A stretch of DNA of 40,625 nt from a virus. The stretch is taken from positions 1 to 40,625 of the IMG/VR virus record IMGVR_UViG_3300017706_000303, one strand, 5' to 3'. Every line of letters starts with the position of its first letter. The first letter of the stretch is position 1. A model generated the notes under the pieces. The model did not search any database. It was given only the letters and a program-made list of their open reading frames with translations, and had not been told where the DNA came from. A program made the position numbers and the translations under genes. Shown here one piece after another: positions 14,101 through 20,103 of this stretch.

Positions 14101-14289
14101 TCAAGGTTCAAGTTCTTCTACAAAGACTTCTTCATTAGTTATAAACTCTAAGAGGTCTATAAGGCAATCCTCTTTAGTTTTATTTATATAGTAATACTTA
14201 CGACCCTTGTATTTGACAACACAATAAACACTAAAGTCTATTATCCTTTTGTTGTCATGATGTATTATTTCTCTAAAGTCTACTAGCAC
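14101..14289 (-). CDS. Small protein of unknown function (62 aa)
   Basis: The frame starts with GTG (MLVDFREIIHHDNKRIIDFS) and has AGGG about ten bases upstream. It continues as VYCVVKYKGRKYYYINKTKE and ends in an acidic tail (NEEVFVEELEP). It resembles a small beta-alpha domain. A good sigma70-like promoter and two operator-like sites lie just upstream, so it may be an early regulator or anti-host peptide. No family was recognised. Confidence 0.5.
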   Translation of the reverse strand: MLVDFREIIHHDNKRIIDFSVYCVVKYKGRKYYYINKTKEDCLIDLLEFITNEEVFVEELEP

Positions 14290-14818: not shown

Positions 14819-15217
14819 TTAGTCCGCTTTCAGAGCTAGGCCCAGACCAACCTTGCCGAGGGCTTTTGCTTTGTTGGCGTCTTGATAACCTTTCAATTTT
14901 TTGACTACTGCCAATGTGTCTTTATTGAGGTTTTTGTTGAGGTATTCAGCAAAAGCGGCTCTAGTCTTGGGGCCATAATCAGATCCGCCATTGGTGAACT
15001 CACGGCTGAATGTATGCCAGACATGGGCAACTACGTCCTGCGACTGTTCAGCCTCAGCAAAGACAGCGACGGTCTGTTCCAGAGCATCTTTCATTACAGG
15101 AAAAAGAGCGCCACGTAGACCGTCTTGTATGTAGTCTGTGAAGACTTTTAGGTCTCCCGCTTTATTGGCTGCAACTAGCTTAGTTTGAGTAGTGGCGTCT
15201 TGGATAAGATTAGTCAT
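14819..15217 (-). CDS. Protein of unknown function (132 aa), minus-strand early-type gene
   Basis: The chosen start is MTNLIQDATTQTKLVAANKA; AAAGGG lies upstream, whereas in-frame extension upstream runs into promoter-like sequence. The protein is mostly helical, with FTDYIQDGLRGALFPVMKDA, a middle stretch SQDVVAHVWHTFSREFTNGG, and an alanine/lysine-rich C-terminus KALGKVGLGLALKAD. No membrane segment or known motif was recognised. Its own candidate promoter lies at about 15.28-15.31 kb, so it is transcribed apart from the late genes. It may be a host-takeover or capsid-independent early protein. Confidence 0.65.
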   Translation of the reverse strand: MTNLIQDATTQTKLVAANKAGDLKVFTDYIQDGLRGALFPVMKDALEQTVAVFAEAEQSQDVVAHVWHTFSREFTNGGSDYGPKTRAAFAEYLNKNLNKDTLAVVKKLKGYQDANKAKALGKVGLGLALKAD

Positions 15218-15280
15218 GATGTAAACCCTTTCAAGGTTCTGAGATATGGGGCGGCGAGTGTCCCCGTTTGCCGTACATAC

Positions 15281-15310
15281 ACTATGCACAGATAATGGTA
15301 TAGTAGTCAA
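15281..15310 (-). promoter_or_regulatory. Candidate promoter for the 132-aa gene
   Basis: On the minus strand, TTGACT (15305-15310) and CATAGT (15281-15286) are separated by 18 bp, about 60 bases upstream of the ATG. The -10 match is moderate, so this is tentative. Confidence 0.35.
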
Positions 15311-15371
15311 GTAAATAATTGCAGTAATAGTGAAAATAATACAAATCGCCATAGACGGCAGCAGAGCCGGG

Positions 15372-15500
15372 CTAATACAACCTATGGGCGATACAACTTA
15401 AAGTTGATCAGACCAGGACTAATACAACCTAAAAGCGATACAACCTAAGGTTGCTCAGAGTTAAACTAATACAACTTTAAGGCGATACAACCTATGGGTT
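15372..15500. repeat. Three tandem 47-bp repeats with internal palindromes
   Basis: Units begin with CTAATACAAC at 15372, 15419 and 15466; the first two are 47 bp and the third is cut to 35 bp. Each contains an ATACAAC pair 16 bp apart and a 13-bp palindrome at the same offset: CAACTTAAAGTTG (15394-15406), CAACCTAAGGTTG (15441-15453) and the imperfect CAACCTATGGGTT (15488-15500). The first two palindromes differ by paired changes that keep the symmetry. This favours a conserved protein-binding site or RNA hairpin over random repeats. They lie in the 1-kb gene-free stretch 15218-16223. Confidence 0.75.
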
Positions 15501-15517
15501 ATTAGAATCGTTCTAAT
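15501..15517. promoter_or_regulatory. Perfect 17-bp palindrome resembling an Irr/ICE box
   Basis: ATTAGAATCGTTCTAAT is a perfect inverted repeat with a 3-bp centre. It matches, from memory, the alphaproteobacterial iron control element form TTAGAA-N3-TTCTAA bound by Irr. It directly follows the 47-bp repeats and lies about 280 bp upstream of the minus-strand 132-aa gene. Regulation by host iron status is only a hypothesis. Confidence 0.35.
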
Positions 15518-15591
15518 TCTACTTTAAGCTGATCACCTTAAAGGCGAGCGAGTAAAATAAAATTCACTCAACCTAAAGGCGAGTGGCTCTG

Positions 15592-15945
15592 AGTCTGACT
15601 CTGAGTAATACTCTGACCCCTACCATGGGAAATAGCCGGACCCCTACCATGGGAAATAGCCCTACCGTGGGAAATAGCCTCGCTTCGCTCGTGGGCTCTG
15701 AGTCATACTAAGAGTAATACTATGACCCCTACCGTGGGAAATAGTCTGAGTCTTACTCTTGCTCCGCAAGCGGCTCTGAGTCATACTCTGAGTAATACTA
15801 TGACCCCTACCGTGGGAATTGGTCTTGCTCCGCAAGCGGCTCTGAGTCTTACTAATAGTCTTACTCTGACCCCTACCGTGGGAAATAGTCTGAGTAATCA
15901 TATGATTAAGAGCCGTAGTTCATCCGTTTACTCAGGAAAATACTA
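15592..15945. repeat. Composite repeat array A (six CCCCTACCGTGGGAAATAG motifs)
   Basis: Six copies of the motif lie at 15617, 15641, 15660, 15726, 15804 and 15870. The last four are spaced 66, 78 and 66 bp apart. Between them are GCTCTGAGT, AGTNATACT hexamer-type repeats (AGTAATACT, AGTCATACT, AGTCTTACT) and CTTGCTCCGCAAG mini-hairpins (two copies). The motif has CCC...GGG dyad character. No gene with a ribosome site was found across it. Possible roles are an origin, a regulator-binding array or a structured RNA. Confidence 0.75.
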
Positions 15946-15974
15946 AGACTCGGACTAAGAGTTCCCCCCCATCT

Positions 15975-16004
15975 GGACTTAATACTTTTGTTGCCCATAA
16001 GTCC
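15975..16004. other. Stem-loop between repeat array A and the plus-strand promoter
   Basis: GGACTTA and TAAGTCC form a 7-bp stem around a 16-nt loop, preceded by a run of seven C. It may end transcripts leaving the array or form part of its structure. Beyond it, to 16223, only the promoter below was recognised. Confidence 0.3.
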
Positions 16005-16120
16005 AATCCCCACCAGTTCTTACAAAATCTCAGAGGCTAAACCACCGTCAACAAAAGATATTCTCCCGGAGCACAATCCTGGACTTAACTATTATCAAAC
16101 CTCGTAGAATAAATCTCCGC

Positions 16121-16149
16121 TTGACTTCTGAGCCTATTTCTGCTATGTT
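16121..16149 (+). promoter_or_regulatory. Candidate sigma70-like promoter for the accessory block
   Basis: TTGACT (16121-16126) and TATGTT (16144-16149) are separated by exactly 17 bp, about 75 bases before the 528-aa gene's ATG. It is the best plus-strand promoter seen in the divergent region. Confidence 0.5.
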
Positions 16150-16223
16150 GATCTTGGGTCAGAATGTCTCTGGCCTGCTCACTCTGAGCTTTTACTAATA
16201 GTAGAACCAACAGGAGAACTATT

Positions 16224-17810
16224 ATGATTACTAGAGAACTTGCTGACGAATATATGCCAGAACGGTGTGTAAGATCTTGGGGACTGTCTCTTGAACAGTT
16301 CCCTAAGTATGACTTAGGCGATCACCCCGACCCTATGGGGCTTGCTCGTAGAGTAAGAAATCATTTTTATAATAGGGTAAATCGGATAGCTCAGGAGGAA
16401 ATAGACACTTACTATCACTTAATAAGAAAAGCCAGAGTTCGGGTTAATAACGATTACCTTGATAAGAATATTACCGAAGAACAGTGTGATACTCTATTAC
16501 ACATGCTCAGGAATACCTATTCGGAATATCGGTCGTTAATTAGTGATCAGATAGAGCTAATAGTGGAGACTATGTTGCCGAACCATGACCCTAAGTCTGC
16601 GGGTTTCTTGGTTCTCTGGCTAGACCAGAAAGGCAGAGACCGAGGCAGAGACGGACGCATTACCCTGCGTTCTGGCAAAGGTCTCAGAAAGATGTTTCCA
16701 TGTCTTACTGATAAAGAAATCGAGAACCTCAACGACGAATACCGCCATGAGTTCTCGGTCAAGGAACTGACTATTCACTCTGGTCAGACTAGGGCAGACT
16801 TTGTTCGTGCCAAGCACAGTCCCATAGGAAAACTAGAGAACCCAGATACTAGCTCTGGTCGTAAGTTTTTGGGTAATAGTTGTATGAGATACGACTTTAT
16901 CGAAACTAGGAAACTATCTATGCAGCCCACTGAGGCTTATGCCTCTGGGGATTTTACTGTCTACTGGACAGAAGATACCTCTGGCAAGATATGCAGTAAT
17001 GTAATTGTGTATGATGGGTCAGAAAATGACCCTGTAGCCGCACCAATATACGGCGTCTGTGAGAAGTCTATAGATACTCTGCAAGAGTTATTGTCTGAGA
17101 AAGGTATAGAGCTTTATACTCACTTCAACGGCAAGCGTTGGACTGGCGCTCGGCTATTACGTTTTGATAATTGTGATGGTGAATACGTCGGCCCATACCT
17201 TGACGTCCAACCCCAAGCTCTTAGCGAGACTGGTTGTGGCAAATACTTAGTTGTAGACCCTAACGGTTCTATTAGTGGCACTACCTATCAAGGTCTCTTA
17301 TATGGTAACGGACAAAGTTGTCATATCTGCGATGATGCTATTTGTCGGGGTAATGAGTATCACTATAATAATGAGACCTATTGCTCTGATTGTTACCATG
17401 ACCGTATCAGACAGTGTAACTATTGCGGCGATGACACAGAGACAGATGACTGCACCACTGTTCAGACTGAGTGCTCTGATTACGAAGAATACTGCGAGTA
17501 CTGCACTAATCAGCATACCATTGTTATTAGTAACGGTGAGATTTGGTTAGAGAGTGACACTAGAGTAACTGCAAATGGTGACACTATTAGTATTGATGAC
17601 TACAACGCTTCTTACTTTACCTCTGACTGGGACGGGCAAATCTACCCTGACCACAACCTAGCGCCACTAGAGAACGGTGACGTTGTATCTGTGACAGAGG
17701 CAGCAAACCACGGAAACTATTACTATTGTGACGACACTGGACTATGGAAAGAAAAGCCCGATGACAACTCAGATGACAACAACCCGTCAACCCCTATTAC
17801 TGAAAGCTAG
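16224..17810 (+). CDS. Zinc-finger phage protein of unknown function (528 aa)
   Basis: The ATG follows CAGGAG at good spacing. Residues 1-190 are helical and basic. The middle (about 215-270) has SGRKFLGNSCMRYDF, QPTEAYASGDFTVYWTEDTS and a GKICSNVIVYDG strand, a combination (SCM... P-x-x-x-Y-x-x-x-D) seen in a widespread group of uncharacterised phage proteins. The C-terminal third has at least four CxxC pairs: CHIC, CSDC, CNYC and CEYC, about residues 373-425, likely binding two or three zinc ions in LIM/RING-like knuckles. The end is acidic and Asn/Asp-rich. It probably binds nucleic acid or a protein partner. It is the first gene of the repeat-bounded block. Confidence 0.7.
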   Translation: MITRELADEYMPERCVRSWGLSLEQFPKYDLGDHPDPMGLARRVRNHFYNRVNRIAQEEIDTYYHLIRKARVRVNNDYLDKNITEEQCDTLLHMLRNTYSEYRSLISDQIELIVETMLPNHDPKSAGFLVLWLDQKGRDRGRDGRITLRSGKGLRKMFPCLTDKEIENLNDEYRHEFSVKELTIHSGQTRADFVRAKHSPIGKLENPDTSSGRKFLGNSCMRYDFIETRKLSMQPTEAYASGDFTVYWTEDTSGKICSNVIVYDGSENDPVAAPIYGVCEKSIDTLQELLSEKGIELYTHFNGKRWTGARLLRFDNCDGEYVGPYLDVQPQALSETGCGKYLVVDPNGSISGTTYQGLLYGNGQSCHICDDAICRGNEYHYNNETYCSDCYHDRIRQCNYCGDDTETDDCTTVQTECSDYEEYCEYCTNQHTIVISNGEIWLESDTRVTANGDTISIDDYNASYFTSDWDGQIYPDHNLAPLENGDVVSVTEAANHGNYYYCDDTGLWKEKPDDNSDDNNPSTPITES

Positions 17811-17817
17811 GTGGAGA

Positions 17818-18810
17818 ATGCATAATTTTATCGAGATGTTGGCCTATTGCCGACCACAGCACTCAGAAACTCAGAGAGAGTTCTGTGAAAAATACCTCAG
17901 ACCTGTATTCGGTCAACCAGACAATGAAGGCAACTATATTCTAGTCGTGGGCCATGCTCCGACTATTTGCTTTGCCAGCCATCATGACACTGTTCATAAG
18001 ACAGACGGTATGCAGGAAGTATTAGTCAAAGGTGACAACGCTTCCCTGCCGCCTCTCTCAGACAGCTCTTGCTTAGGCGCAGACTGTACGACTGGCATAT
18101 GGTTACAGCTAGAGATGATCAGAGCAGGTATCGAGGGTGTCTATGTTGTTCACGCCTCAGAGGAGATAGGTTGCTTAGGTTCCCGATACATTGTCGGACG
18201 CAACCCCAGATGGCTGCAAAGACTTAATGCCGTAATATCGTTCGACCGTAAGGGTACGGAAAGCGTTATTACACACCAGATGGGCTTGCGTACTGCGTCC
18301 GATGCCTTTGCAGTATCCTTGGCTAAAGTCTTAAACTTGCCTCTGCGTCCCGACGATACAGGCTCTTATACTGACAGCAACGAATATGCCTCTGATGTTT
18401 CGGAGTGTACTAATCTATCTGTAGGCTATTACAGCCAACATACTAAGAACGAACATCAGGACTTATACTATCTCAAGCAACTCAAGGATGCCCTAATAGC
18501 CGCAGACTGGTCGCAGCTAGTAATAGCCCGTGATCCGTCTATCTCAGAATACAAATACGAACGTGGCGGCTGGGATAGCGATTGGACTCGTGTTAATAGG
18601 CAATACAATACCTCTGCGTTTTTTGACGATATGTATCCTGCTCAGATAGGTAGCTCAGAACGTGATGAACGTGACGACCTAACAGACCTGCTCCGAGAAT
18701 ACCCTGCTCAGATAGCAGACTGGCTAGACGCTAATAACATCACCTATGACGACCTTATACAAGAGCTAGACCTTGTAGACCCTAAGATGCGGCGTGTTAC
18801 CTACTGGTAA
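17818..18810 (+). CDS. M20/M28/M42-like zinc metallopeptidase (330 aa)
   Basis: A start at 17818 (MHNFIEMLAYCRPQHSETQR) is preferred: it begins just after the upstream stop and has AGGTGGAG before it, while a longer start would overlap the 528-aa gene by 83 bases. All ligand positions of a two-zinc co-catalytic peptidase are visible: ASHHDTVH (His55/Asp57), CLGADCTTG (Asp89), HASEEIG (Glu115 general base and Glu116), SFDRKG (Asp143), and a late His in SQHTKNEH (208 or 213). These families act as aminopeptidases, di/tripeptidases or deacylases. The substrate is unknown. A phage gene of this class beside replication genes is unusual. Confidence 0.7.
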   Translation: MHNFIEMLAYCRPQHSETQREFCEKYLRPVFGQPDNEGNYILVVGHAPTICFASHHDTVHKTDGMQEVLVKGDNASLPPLSDSSCLGADCTTGIWLQLEMIRAGIEGVYVVHASEEIGCLGSRYIVGRNPRWLQRLNAVISFDRKGTESVITHQMGLRTASDAFAVSLAKVLNLPLRPDDTGSYTDSNEYASDVSECTNLSVGYYSQHTKNEHQDLYYLKQLKDALIAADWSQLVIARDPSISEYKYERGGWDSDWTRVNRQYNTSAFFDDMYPAQIGSSERDERDDLTDLLREYPAQIADWLDANNITYDDLIQELDLVDPKMRRVTYW

Positions 18811-18838
18811 TACCTAAACATCATACCAGACCTAATAG

Positions 18839-18874
18839 GGTTCGCTCAGACTTGACAATCTGGGCGAACCTTTT
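18839..18874 (+). terminator. Rho-independent terminator after the peptidase gene
   Basis: A 12-bp stem (GGTTCGCTCAGA with TCTGGGCGAACC, one G-T pair) with an 8-nt loop is followed by TTTT. It lies 28 bases beyond the peptidase stop codon and should end the two-gene transcript. The next about 150 bases hold further short GC-rich inverted repeats (CCCAC/GTGGG, TTGGC/GCCAA) and no certain gene. Confidence 0.7.
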
Positions 18875-19026
18875 GAGGTGAAAGAGGACGCCCACAGAGG
18901 CCGTGGGAGGCCCCTTAGAGAGCCAAGTCACCATTTGGCAGGTTACTATAGCCAAAACACAAGACGGGCCTGTACGGGCCGCATATGCAGCCAATCGCCC
19001 AGATCGGGCCAACTATGAGGTATACT

Positions 19027-19233
19027 ATGAGCAAAGAAGACATAGACACAAGCTGGCTAGAACACTTAGACACAGTAATAGCTCGGGAGCAGACCGAGAA
19101 AGACTTTGACAGGGAGGTTAATCAACTAATAGCTGACATTATTTGGTCAGTACCTGTCCCAAATCTAGGACATTGTCCTATTATTAATTGCTATATACCA
19201 CACACGGATCTTAGAAAGAGGACTAAAAAATGA
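19027..19233 (+). CDS. Small acidic protein of unknown function (68 aa)
   Basis: The start MSKEDIDTSWLEHLDTVIAR has GAGGT five bases upstream. A helical, charged N-terminal half is followed by NQLIADIIWSVPVPNLGHCP and a basic end RKRTKK. It ends in an ATGA overlap with the next gene, so the two are probably co-translated. Function unknown. Confidence 0.55.
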   Translation: MSKEDIDTSWLEHLDTVIAREQTEKDFDREVNQLIADIIWSVPVPNLGHCPIINCYIPHTDLRKRTKK

Positions 19234-19484
19234 AGATACGCATACACGTTAACCAACACATAATCAGAGCTAATGCCAAGACTGGTAGGAATGACCCAAC
19301 TCTGACCGCTAAGACCTATAAACATAATTACAGAATACATGAGGTAGACCTGCAGGTTATCTCAGAAGTAAAGTATGAGCCAGACCACCCGCTACCATGC
19401 GGAGCAAAAGTCTGGATCGAGGCACAGGCGCAAGAACTATTACTAACAAGTATTAGAGGAAGGGAGATTCTCCGTGTCTTATAA
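19230..19484 (+). CDS. Small protein of unknown function (84 aa)
   Basis: The protein MKIRIHVNQHIIRANAKTGR continues with EVDLQVISEVKYEPDHPLPC and AKVWIEAQAQELLLT. It is a strand-rich small domain with a basic N-terminal half. Overlaps on both sides (four bases upstream, eleven downstream) place it in a compact three-gene run with the 68-aa and 48-aa genes. No family was recognised. Confidence 0.55.
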   Translation: MKIRIHVNQHIIRANAKTGRNDPTLTAKTYKHNYRIHEVDLQVISEVKYEPDHPLPCGAKVWIEAQAQELLLTSIRGREILRVL

Positions 19485-19620
19485 TTACCGCCTAACTTTC
19501 TTTGACCAATATGGCAAGTTGATCTGTTATAAATCTTTTCGTAGCAGGTCAGAGGCAGAGTCAGAGTTAACTAGAGCAAAGAAAGCAGGACTATGGGTCA
19601 GGTTATTACCTATTAAATAA
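19474..19620 (+). CDS. Small basic protein, GTG start (48 aa)
   Basis: The frame MSYNYRLTFFDQYGKLICYK then SFRSRSEAESELTRAKKAGL ends WVRLLPIK. It has AGGGAG about eight bases before the GTG and overlaps the previous gene. A beta-hairpin followed by a helix (SRSEAESELTRAKKAG) resembles many tiny phage proteins. It is directly followed by a terminator. Function unknown. Confidence 0.5.
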   Translation: MSYNYRLTFFDQYGKLICYKSFRSRSEAESELTRAKKAGLWVRLLPIK

Positions 19621-19642
19621 TTCATACAATTACTAATACTAA

Positions 19643-19670
19643 GGCTCTGAGTAATACTCAGGGTCTTTTT
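19643..19670 (+). terminator. Rho-independent terminator made of the array hexamer motif
   Basis: GGCTCTGAGT-AAT-ACTCAGGGTC forms a 10-bp stem (two G-T pairs) and is followed by TTTTT. The stem is built from the same CTGAGTAATACT word that fills repeat array A, so array units may have been derived from, or into, terminators. Confidence 0.65.
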
Positions 19671-19680
19671 CTTTGTCCTA

Positions 19681-19797
19681 TTAATAGTAACACTATGAGT
19701 CATACTAAGACCAGGACTAATACTATCACTCTGACTAAGATTAATACTAAGAGTCATACTAATACTAAGAGTCATACTAATACTCTTAGGCCGGGCA
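19681..19797. repeat. AGTNATACT/ACTAAGAGT hexamer-periodic repeat tract
   Basis: A tract of six-base-periodic words (ACTAATACT, GAGTCATACT, CTAAGAG) includes a twofold 18-bp repeat, ACTAAGAGTCATACTAAT. The same words occur in array A. It fills part of the 345-base gene-free stretch 19621-19965. An overlapping minus-strand open frame has no ribosome site. Confidence 0.6.
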
Positions 19798-19822
19798 TTA
19801 CTAATAGCCCTACAGTAGAAAG

Positions 19823-20037
19823 CCCTCCGTGGGAATTTGGCCCCTACGTGGGAATTTAGTGTGACATTTTTGCCACCCCTACGTGGGAATTTGTACCCTA
19901 CGTGGGAATTTGCTTGCACCCTGCGTGGGAATTTGATCTAGTGCTGGCAGTGAAGGAGAAAAAATATGAGTGAAGAACTAAAAAGAGAGTTGCGTATGCT
20001 AGGCGTACTTGATTATAAGACCCCTACGGTGGAAAAT
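19823..20037. repeat. Repeat array B (CCCCTACGTGGGAATTTG, six copies)
   Basis: Copies start at 19823, 19841, 19876, 19896, 19919 and, degenerate, at 20021. The motif differs from array A by one missing base in the centre (CTACGTGGG against CTACCGTGGG) and by TTTG in place of ATAG. The last copy lies inside the coding sequence of a 45-aa gene. The two arrays flank the accessory block, with array A upstream and array B downstream. Confidence 0.75.
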
Positions 20038-20103
20038 GATACACCACCCATTTGGGTAAGGGACGATGTAACCTTCGATGATGAAGGTGAACCAAACTTC
20101 TAG
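19966..20103 (+). CDS. Small acidic protein containing a repeat copy (45 aa)
   Basis: The frame MSEELKRELRMLGVLDYKTP then TVENDTPPIWVRDDVTFDDE ends GEPNF. AAGGAG lies seven bases before the ATG. The stretch encoding KTPTVEND is the sixth array B motif copy. This shows that either the repeat inserted into a gene or the gene start arose from the repeat. The DNA-binding or other function is unknown. Confidence 0.55.
   Translation: MSEELKRELRMLGVLDYKTPTVENDTPPIWVRDDVTFDDEGEPNF

Follow-up and report, generated by a model that had tools for sequence, protein, structure and literature searches.

Two arrays of an asymmetric repeated site in a virus genome, read as probable tandem operators of early promoters

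One close described counterpart of the repeats discussed here is found in the cluster A mycobacteriophages, such as L5 and TipsytheTRex, in which more than 20 asymmetric sites, the operators and stoperators, are spread over the genome (PMC9283540). The repeats of the present locus are likewise asymmetric, occur in many copies, and lie both at promoters and between genes. Like stoperators, they are oriented with transcription in the genome under study and in phages of the CRP-6 type, but they are opposed to it in phages of the CRP-811 type. They also differ from the cluster A sites in being packed into one or two rows rather than spread genome-wide (the genome under study has 12, all in two clusters), in their unrelated sequence, and in that no candidate repressor gene runs through all the array-bearing phage groups compared. 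A second comparison is with the GcrA/CcrM-dependent promoters that occur in Alphaproteobacteria (PMC3667746). Phages of the CRP-6 type resemble these in having GANTC directly after the -10 element; however, the spacer motif of the arrays is not GANTC, and the promoters of the genome under study have no GANTC. Halovirus HF2 is reported to have intergenic repeats that carry promoters (PMC8707807). The likeness is in the promoters held by intergenic repeats, but the virus belongs to another domain of life, the sequence is different, and here it is usually one late copy of the row that forms the promoter. Finally, the arrays recall iteron origins, in that near replication genes their direct repeats of constant orientation adjoin a tandem tract that is often AT-rich; unlike iterons, they recur at several promoters, and no initiator gene is tied to the motif.

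The DNA analysed (the window) is the entire 40,625-base IMG/VR record IMGVR_UViG_3300017706_000303. Genes for terminase, portal, capsid and tail proteins run leftward, and the early genes, among them those for ThyX, a primase-helicase and a DNA polymerase of family A, run rightward at about 16.2-31.7 kb. By its terminase, the nearest named phage is Roseobacter phage CRP-6 (81%). The record may be incomplete by a few kb, as a tape-measure gene is not evident and one gene runs off the end. PF00940, the phage single-subunit RNA polymerase, was unmatched in the record and likewise in the control genomes, and the window region gave no meaningful Rfam match to a structured RNA.

A preliminary description of this DNA reported two related repeat arrays around a block of genes, which were proposed to form either a module that moves or duplicates or a replication or regulatory unit. 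The motif copies that it placed in the two arrays were recovered by pattern search (Table 1). The copies of array B, which can also be written CCCT[ACG]CGTGGGAA, are spaced 19, 35, 19 and 23 bases apart, and this spacing is the same in most relatives. A twelfth copy, CCCTACGGTGGAAAA, lies within the 45-aa gene after array B, and all 12 are on the + strand. When the window was searched with a pattern derived from the arrays of other phages, in the forms CCCNNCNRTGGRAAW and CCCNNCRTGGRAAW, it matched at 7 + 5 places, which are exactly the known copies and nothing else; about 0.04 would be expected by chance (shuffles gave 0.01 and 0.03 for the two patterns). The AGTNATACT word, also noted earlier, occurs 17 times in the window against 2.9 expected, with 9 of the 17 inside the two arrays.

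Table 1. Coordinates of the arrays, genes and signals in the window
Feature	Position	Strand	Basis and remarks
Imperfect tandem repeats of 47 bp (CTAATACAACCTAAAGGCGATACAACCTAAAGTTGATCAGAC), upstream of array A	15372..15528		TRF, sequence
Array A, six copies CCCTACC[GA]TGGGAA[AT]	15618..15885; starts 15618, 15642, 15660, 15727, 15805, 15871	+	pattern search
Promoter-like TTGACT-17-TATGTT before zinc-finger gene, spacer without motif	16121..16149	+	same site in L008, similar in L035
528-aa protein with C-terminal Cys pairs (ZF)	16224..17810	+	family occurs with and without arrays
M28-type peptidase	17818..18810	+	PF04389, phrog_4191
Intrinsic terminator hairpin after peptidase gene	18837..18872	+	-23.5 kcal/mol, z -6.2
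Small genes, 82 aa (18985-19233) and 84 aa (19230-19484)	18985..19484	+	84-aa product matches phrog_8676
Third small gene, about 47 aa	19477..19620	+	gene comparison
Intrinsic terminator, hairpin includes AGTAATACT word	19641..19667	+	-15.6 kcal/mol, z -4.0; kept in nearly all aligned relatives
Hexamer-phased tandem tract (18/30-bp), upstream of array B	19680..19784	+	TRF, alignment; length varies among relatives
Array B, five copies CCCT[ACG]CGTGGGAAT	19823..19932; starts 19823, 19842, 19877, 19896, 19919	+	pattern search, alignment
Imperfect dyad GTGACA-N4-TGCCAC, between the second and third copies of array B	19861..19876		sequence, alignment
Promoter with last B copy as 17-bp spacer: TTGCAC (19914-19919), TCTAGT (19937-19942)	19914..19942	+	alignment, spacer count
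45-aa gene, first of ThyX/replication operon; motif copy at 20022-20036	19966..20103	+	reading frame, pattern search

The features between the arrays were partly as described before. Both proposed terminators are real by their folding scores (Table 1). The peptidase had been called M20/M42-like, but its Pfam match is to M28. The 528-aa protein labelled as a zinc-finger protein has no Pfam or PHROG match and shows only weak LIM-like Cys pairs. The promoter proposed ahead of the zinc-finger gene is present as a sequence, although promoter-like matches from a generic scan are no commoner in the region than in shuffles.

The motif belongs to a wider family, CCC-nn-C-n-RTGGRAA, and paired motifs of this kind were found by a general pattern scan in at least 119 viral stretches, including the cultivated phages CRP-6 and CRP-811; these array loci include related phages and are not independent lineages, many of the contigs are fragmentary, and for most contigs the host is not identified. 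The reversed pattern, used as a control, gave 0 matches in the same viral scan. With one copy taken from each of 118 loci among the matches listed, the consensus is CCCC-n-n-C-n-R-T-G-G-R-A-A-W, some positions of which are fixed by the search pattern used to find the copies. The base frequencies (CCCC..C.RTGGRAA) are without dyad symmetry, as expected of an asymmetric repeated site. Among 50,697 deposited phage records, matches occur only in CRP-6 and CRP-811, both of them Roseobacter phages. Their isolation hosts were pelagic Roseobacter strains that belong to the RCA and CHUG lineages (PMC6918029, PMC12629253). CRP-6 has five copies of the form ACCC(C)TCCGATGGAAAA, and other contigs carry CCCC[AT]CC[AG][AG]TGGAAAATGA. 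CRP-811 and CRP-6 have in common a 42-bp two-copy unit (97.6%); among the genes compared, the matches between CRP-6 and CRP-811, and between the window and CRP-811, are in tail proteins only. No array was found in CRP-821, CRP-823 and CRP-831, the sisters of CRP-811, or in 72,556 plasmids, and a narrow motif pair gave 8 matches in bacterial genomes, all of them unrelated repeats. Literature searches on the motif strings returned nothing relevant and text searches of the CRP-6 and CRP-811 papers turned up neither promoters nor repeats, so that a short site standing in rows at early promoters of many ocean phages is undescribed in the literature searched.

The architecture of the arrays is regular. 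Motif clusters are confined to one strand within each of the 118 loci (among the matches listed), and a simple tandem tract of varying sequence often lies 5' of the motif row. Nor are the arrays placed at random, an outcome for which the preliminary description had allowed: terminase genes lie upstream on the opposite strand in 100 of 102 matches, and in 102 of 102, on the 5' side of the array and within about 7 kb, when CRP-811 is taken as a circle, since the two remaining matches fit the rule only because CRP-811 is circular. In 79 of the 118 array loci (among the matches listed) a TTG-type -35 is separated from a -10 by a 17-bp spacer that a motif copy fills, although this count takes in related phages, and so does not represent independent events, and the 31 distinct promoter-like sites behind it include some chance matches. 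The -10 match at these spacer copies averages 2.4 of 6, versus 0.99 at the same offset from other copies. GANTC stands at a fixed offset after the -10 in 30 of 36 distinct copies that bear TTGAC, mostly of the CRP-6 type, a count that again takes in related phages; the layout of this type is TTGACC-CC[AT]CC..TGGAAA...-TANNGT-GATTC. Within the early region, L146, L164, L181, L206 and L223 have a second, small array, which likewise ends in a TTGACC-motif promoter, here ahead of the peptidase gene.

In the window, the last copy of array B has the same placement, reading TTGCAC-CCTGCGTGGGAATTTGA-TCTAGT, 23 bases before the start codon and ahead of the ThyX/replication operon. Its -10 is weak, and a generic promoter scan does not report this promoter. 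The layout is nevertheless kept in 14 of 15 relatives in a 16-sequence alignment, the exception being the distant L107, which has the related layout TTGTAC-N17-TACTGT; L008 has a better -35, TTGACT. Across the 15 relatives the motifs, the spacing and the -35 and -10 elements of array B are mostly constant and the hexamer tract varies in length. No copy in array A has TTGAC, and the promoter ahead of the zinc-finger gene has no motif. In phages of the CRP-811 type the site is antisense to transcription, with no TTGAC in register. In these phages two arrays flank one gene of about 240-250 aa, with the motif antisense to it (L229 2047-2837, L092 1275-2107, L127 1715-2614, L178 3499-4335).

The arrays and the genes between them are not kept together as one unit across the phages compared. 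The block with its edges at the arrays is kept in the close relatives that span the region (L005, L006, L008-L010, L035, L036), where array A, block and array B follow in the same order with only small-gene changes, but it is dismantled in distant phages. There the order is ZF(+)-array-M28 (L145, L181, L187, L206, L213, L223) or ZF(-)-array-M28 (L131, L146, L157, L164, L176, L186, L191, L194, L199), and the ZF-M28 pair also occurs without an array (L015, L023, L024, L042, L080). Arrays without the genes of the block, which the preliminary description had named beforehand as the case against a module, are found in distant phages such as CRP-6, which has an array and neither ZF nor M28. Because the two genes are split by arrays, lack them, or are absent beside them, gene content and arrays are inherited separately, and the reading as a module that moves or duplicates fails on the gene orders of distant phages. 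IS21-like transposon ends, another model for such arrays, were rejected, as the array is absent from the plasmids searched and both arrays are in direct orientation. On the sequence evidence, the best reading is that the two repeat clusters do not bound a mobile block of genes but would be two copies of a regulatory DNA array.

Arrays A and B are probably tandem operator arrays that control early promoters, and the operator and promoter layout lends support to the regulatory unit among the earlier proposals. From the sites, the promoter geometry and their conservation, all of which are observed, we infer binding and repression in the following way. Asymmetric sites of about 16 bp (CCCC-N-N-C-N-R-TGG-R-AA-W) stand in rows, all on the strand that points away from the late operon with the terminase genes; the early genes of the window and of phages of the CRP-6 type have the same direction. 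A predicted DNA-binding protein would fill the row and, at the promoter copy, compete with RNA polymerase, and early transcription would be held down or timed by the bound protein. The upstream copies would raise local occupancy at the promoter copy, as in a cooperative operator. Array A would serve the operon of the zinc-finger and peptidase genes, and perhaps also genes of the opposite strand, and array B the replication operon with its 45-aa gene, ThyX and primase/polymerase. A protein that activates while bound in a spacer of the normal 17 bp is less likely. It counts against the operator reading that CRP-821, CRP-823 and CRP-831 manage without arrays.

An alternative role would be that of replication-origin iterons, where an initiator binds the row and opens the adjoining AT-rich tract near the replication genes. 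The direct repeats, at about two helical turns (19, 21 and 25 bp), would suit this, as would the simple tandem tract that many phages have 5' of the row and the location of the arrays where late and early genes diverge; in the window, moreover, the cumulative GC skew reaches its minimum at the arrays. However, the skew minimum also tracks the switch in gene direction, so that both it and the array position can be put down to the divergent gene layout. In CRP-811 the genes run one way through the arrays and the skew minimum is at 9.0 kb, not at 2.0-2.8 kb; its sister phages replicate without the motif, which is moreover common to two replication gene sets (T7-like primase/PolA and RepA helicase). 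Since the window and the five loci with second arrays have two arrays each, each near a promoter, regulation fits better, and we consider an origin unlikely. DnaA boxes were rejected by eye, as the motif is without the TTATCCACA consensus. The arrays as recombination edges of a cassette, with array-gene-array units exchanged between phages, are less probable still. Such exchange would account for the single gene flanked by arrays in CRP-811, where homology to CRP-823 and CRP-831 sets in at the second array's edge (2846), for the same arrangement in L092, L127 and L178, and for the 42-bp unit common to unrelated phages. Yet the block is constant in the relatives of the window, other phages have a single array standing between its two main genes, and no integrase domain was found in the window record; any conserved operator would be expected to give short stretches of common DNA at promoters.

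The terminase rule described above, which all 102 matches fit with CRP-811 as a circle, raises the further possibility of a packaging or terminase recognition site, oriented in accordance with the terminase genes. However, CRP-6-type and CRP-811-type phages have one and the same motif although their small terminase families differ, and sister phages with terminases of the CRP-811 type have no array; the copies at early promoters and the second arrays of the early region would also be left unexplained, and we judge this function highly improbable. We give equally little credence to the idea that the arrays act as a sponge, titrating a DNA-binding protein of the host, and that the promoter copy is a side effect of this: many tandem copies, common to phages of related hosts, would be in keeping with it, but a sponge needs no fixed copy in a 17-bp spacer, no constant -10 offset and no conserved spacing.

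If the arrays are operators, a protein must read them, and with less certainty we would take it to be host-made. A host factor is proposed because the site is common to phages whose replication genes are unrelated, and a host protein would be the simplest common factor because no non-tail gene common to the window, CRP-6 and CRP-811 was found among the genes compared. No gene that could be a candidate repressor was found in all of the array-bearing phage groups compared. A small, fast-changing phage protein is a less favoured possibility. A more specific version is conceivable, and on balance somewhat doubtful: a new host protein of pelagic Roseobacter would recognise CCCCNNCNRTGGRAAW, unrelated phages would have incorporated its site, in rows, at their early promoters, and the protein would silence incoming phages or report to them the state of the cell. 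The motif provides a testable handle on the start or delay of infection by phages of the pelagic Roseobacter cluster, and possibly on a new host regulator; if the host link holds, it would also allow metagenomic viruses to be assigned to this host group by a simple sequence test.

Several phage proteins were considered as readers of the site and rejected. A phage sigma factor is one of these, as a protein like CRP-6 gp14 is present in 39 of the 81 array loci compared and absent from the window. CRP-6 gp14 itself (L090 3586-4101), annotated as hypothetical, matches sigma70-ECF at 2.3e-10, just below the curated cut-off. GP88, the DUF7227-like protein or ZF might each have been a cognate regulator, and one of them is present in 23 of 32 well-flanked array loci versus 7 of 71 controls, but 9 are without any, and the three families are not detectably related to each other. 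GP88 (PF17338; L090 43218-44024) and the DUF7227-like Cys-rich protein (L229 754-1710) occupy a similar place beside the array and never occur together in the 32 well-flanked loci.

Some minor features of the region were also noted. Array A does not consist of coding repeats: there are open frames on both strands, yet a 67-bp unit breaks the frame and the spacing varies. At 15973-16052 of the window, TGGACTTA...TAAGTCCA enclose CTTTTGTTG, whose complement, CAACAAAAG, is found some 50 bases downstream, and the words CTTTTGTTG and CAACAAAAG are kept exactly or nearly in L005, L008, L009, L035 and L036; a hairpin or pseudoknot at 15960-16060 was rejected, its folding being no better than that of shuffles. 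Beside array A, the minus strand at 14101-14289 encodes a protein of 62-70 aa that is 97-98% identical in close relatives, and the neighbouring gene at 14819-15352 has 39 to 85% identity or is unmatched in relatives. The motif copy inside the 45-aa gene encodes the peptide TPTVEN; in L026 (at about 1100), where the array was not found, the 45-aa gene reads TPAVEI and the motif still fits. The dyad between copies 2 and 3 of array B is perfect (GTGACA-N4-TGTCAC) in L030 and L035, and in its general form, GTGACA-N4-TG[CT]CAC, it is a possible candidate for a second regulator site. The last 47-bp unit contains the palindrome TTAGAATCGTTCTAA, which is a recurrent element of the tandem units ahead of array A (window about 15500-15516, L008 7270-7350, L035 2860-2960) and has the look of a second, dimeric operator.
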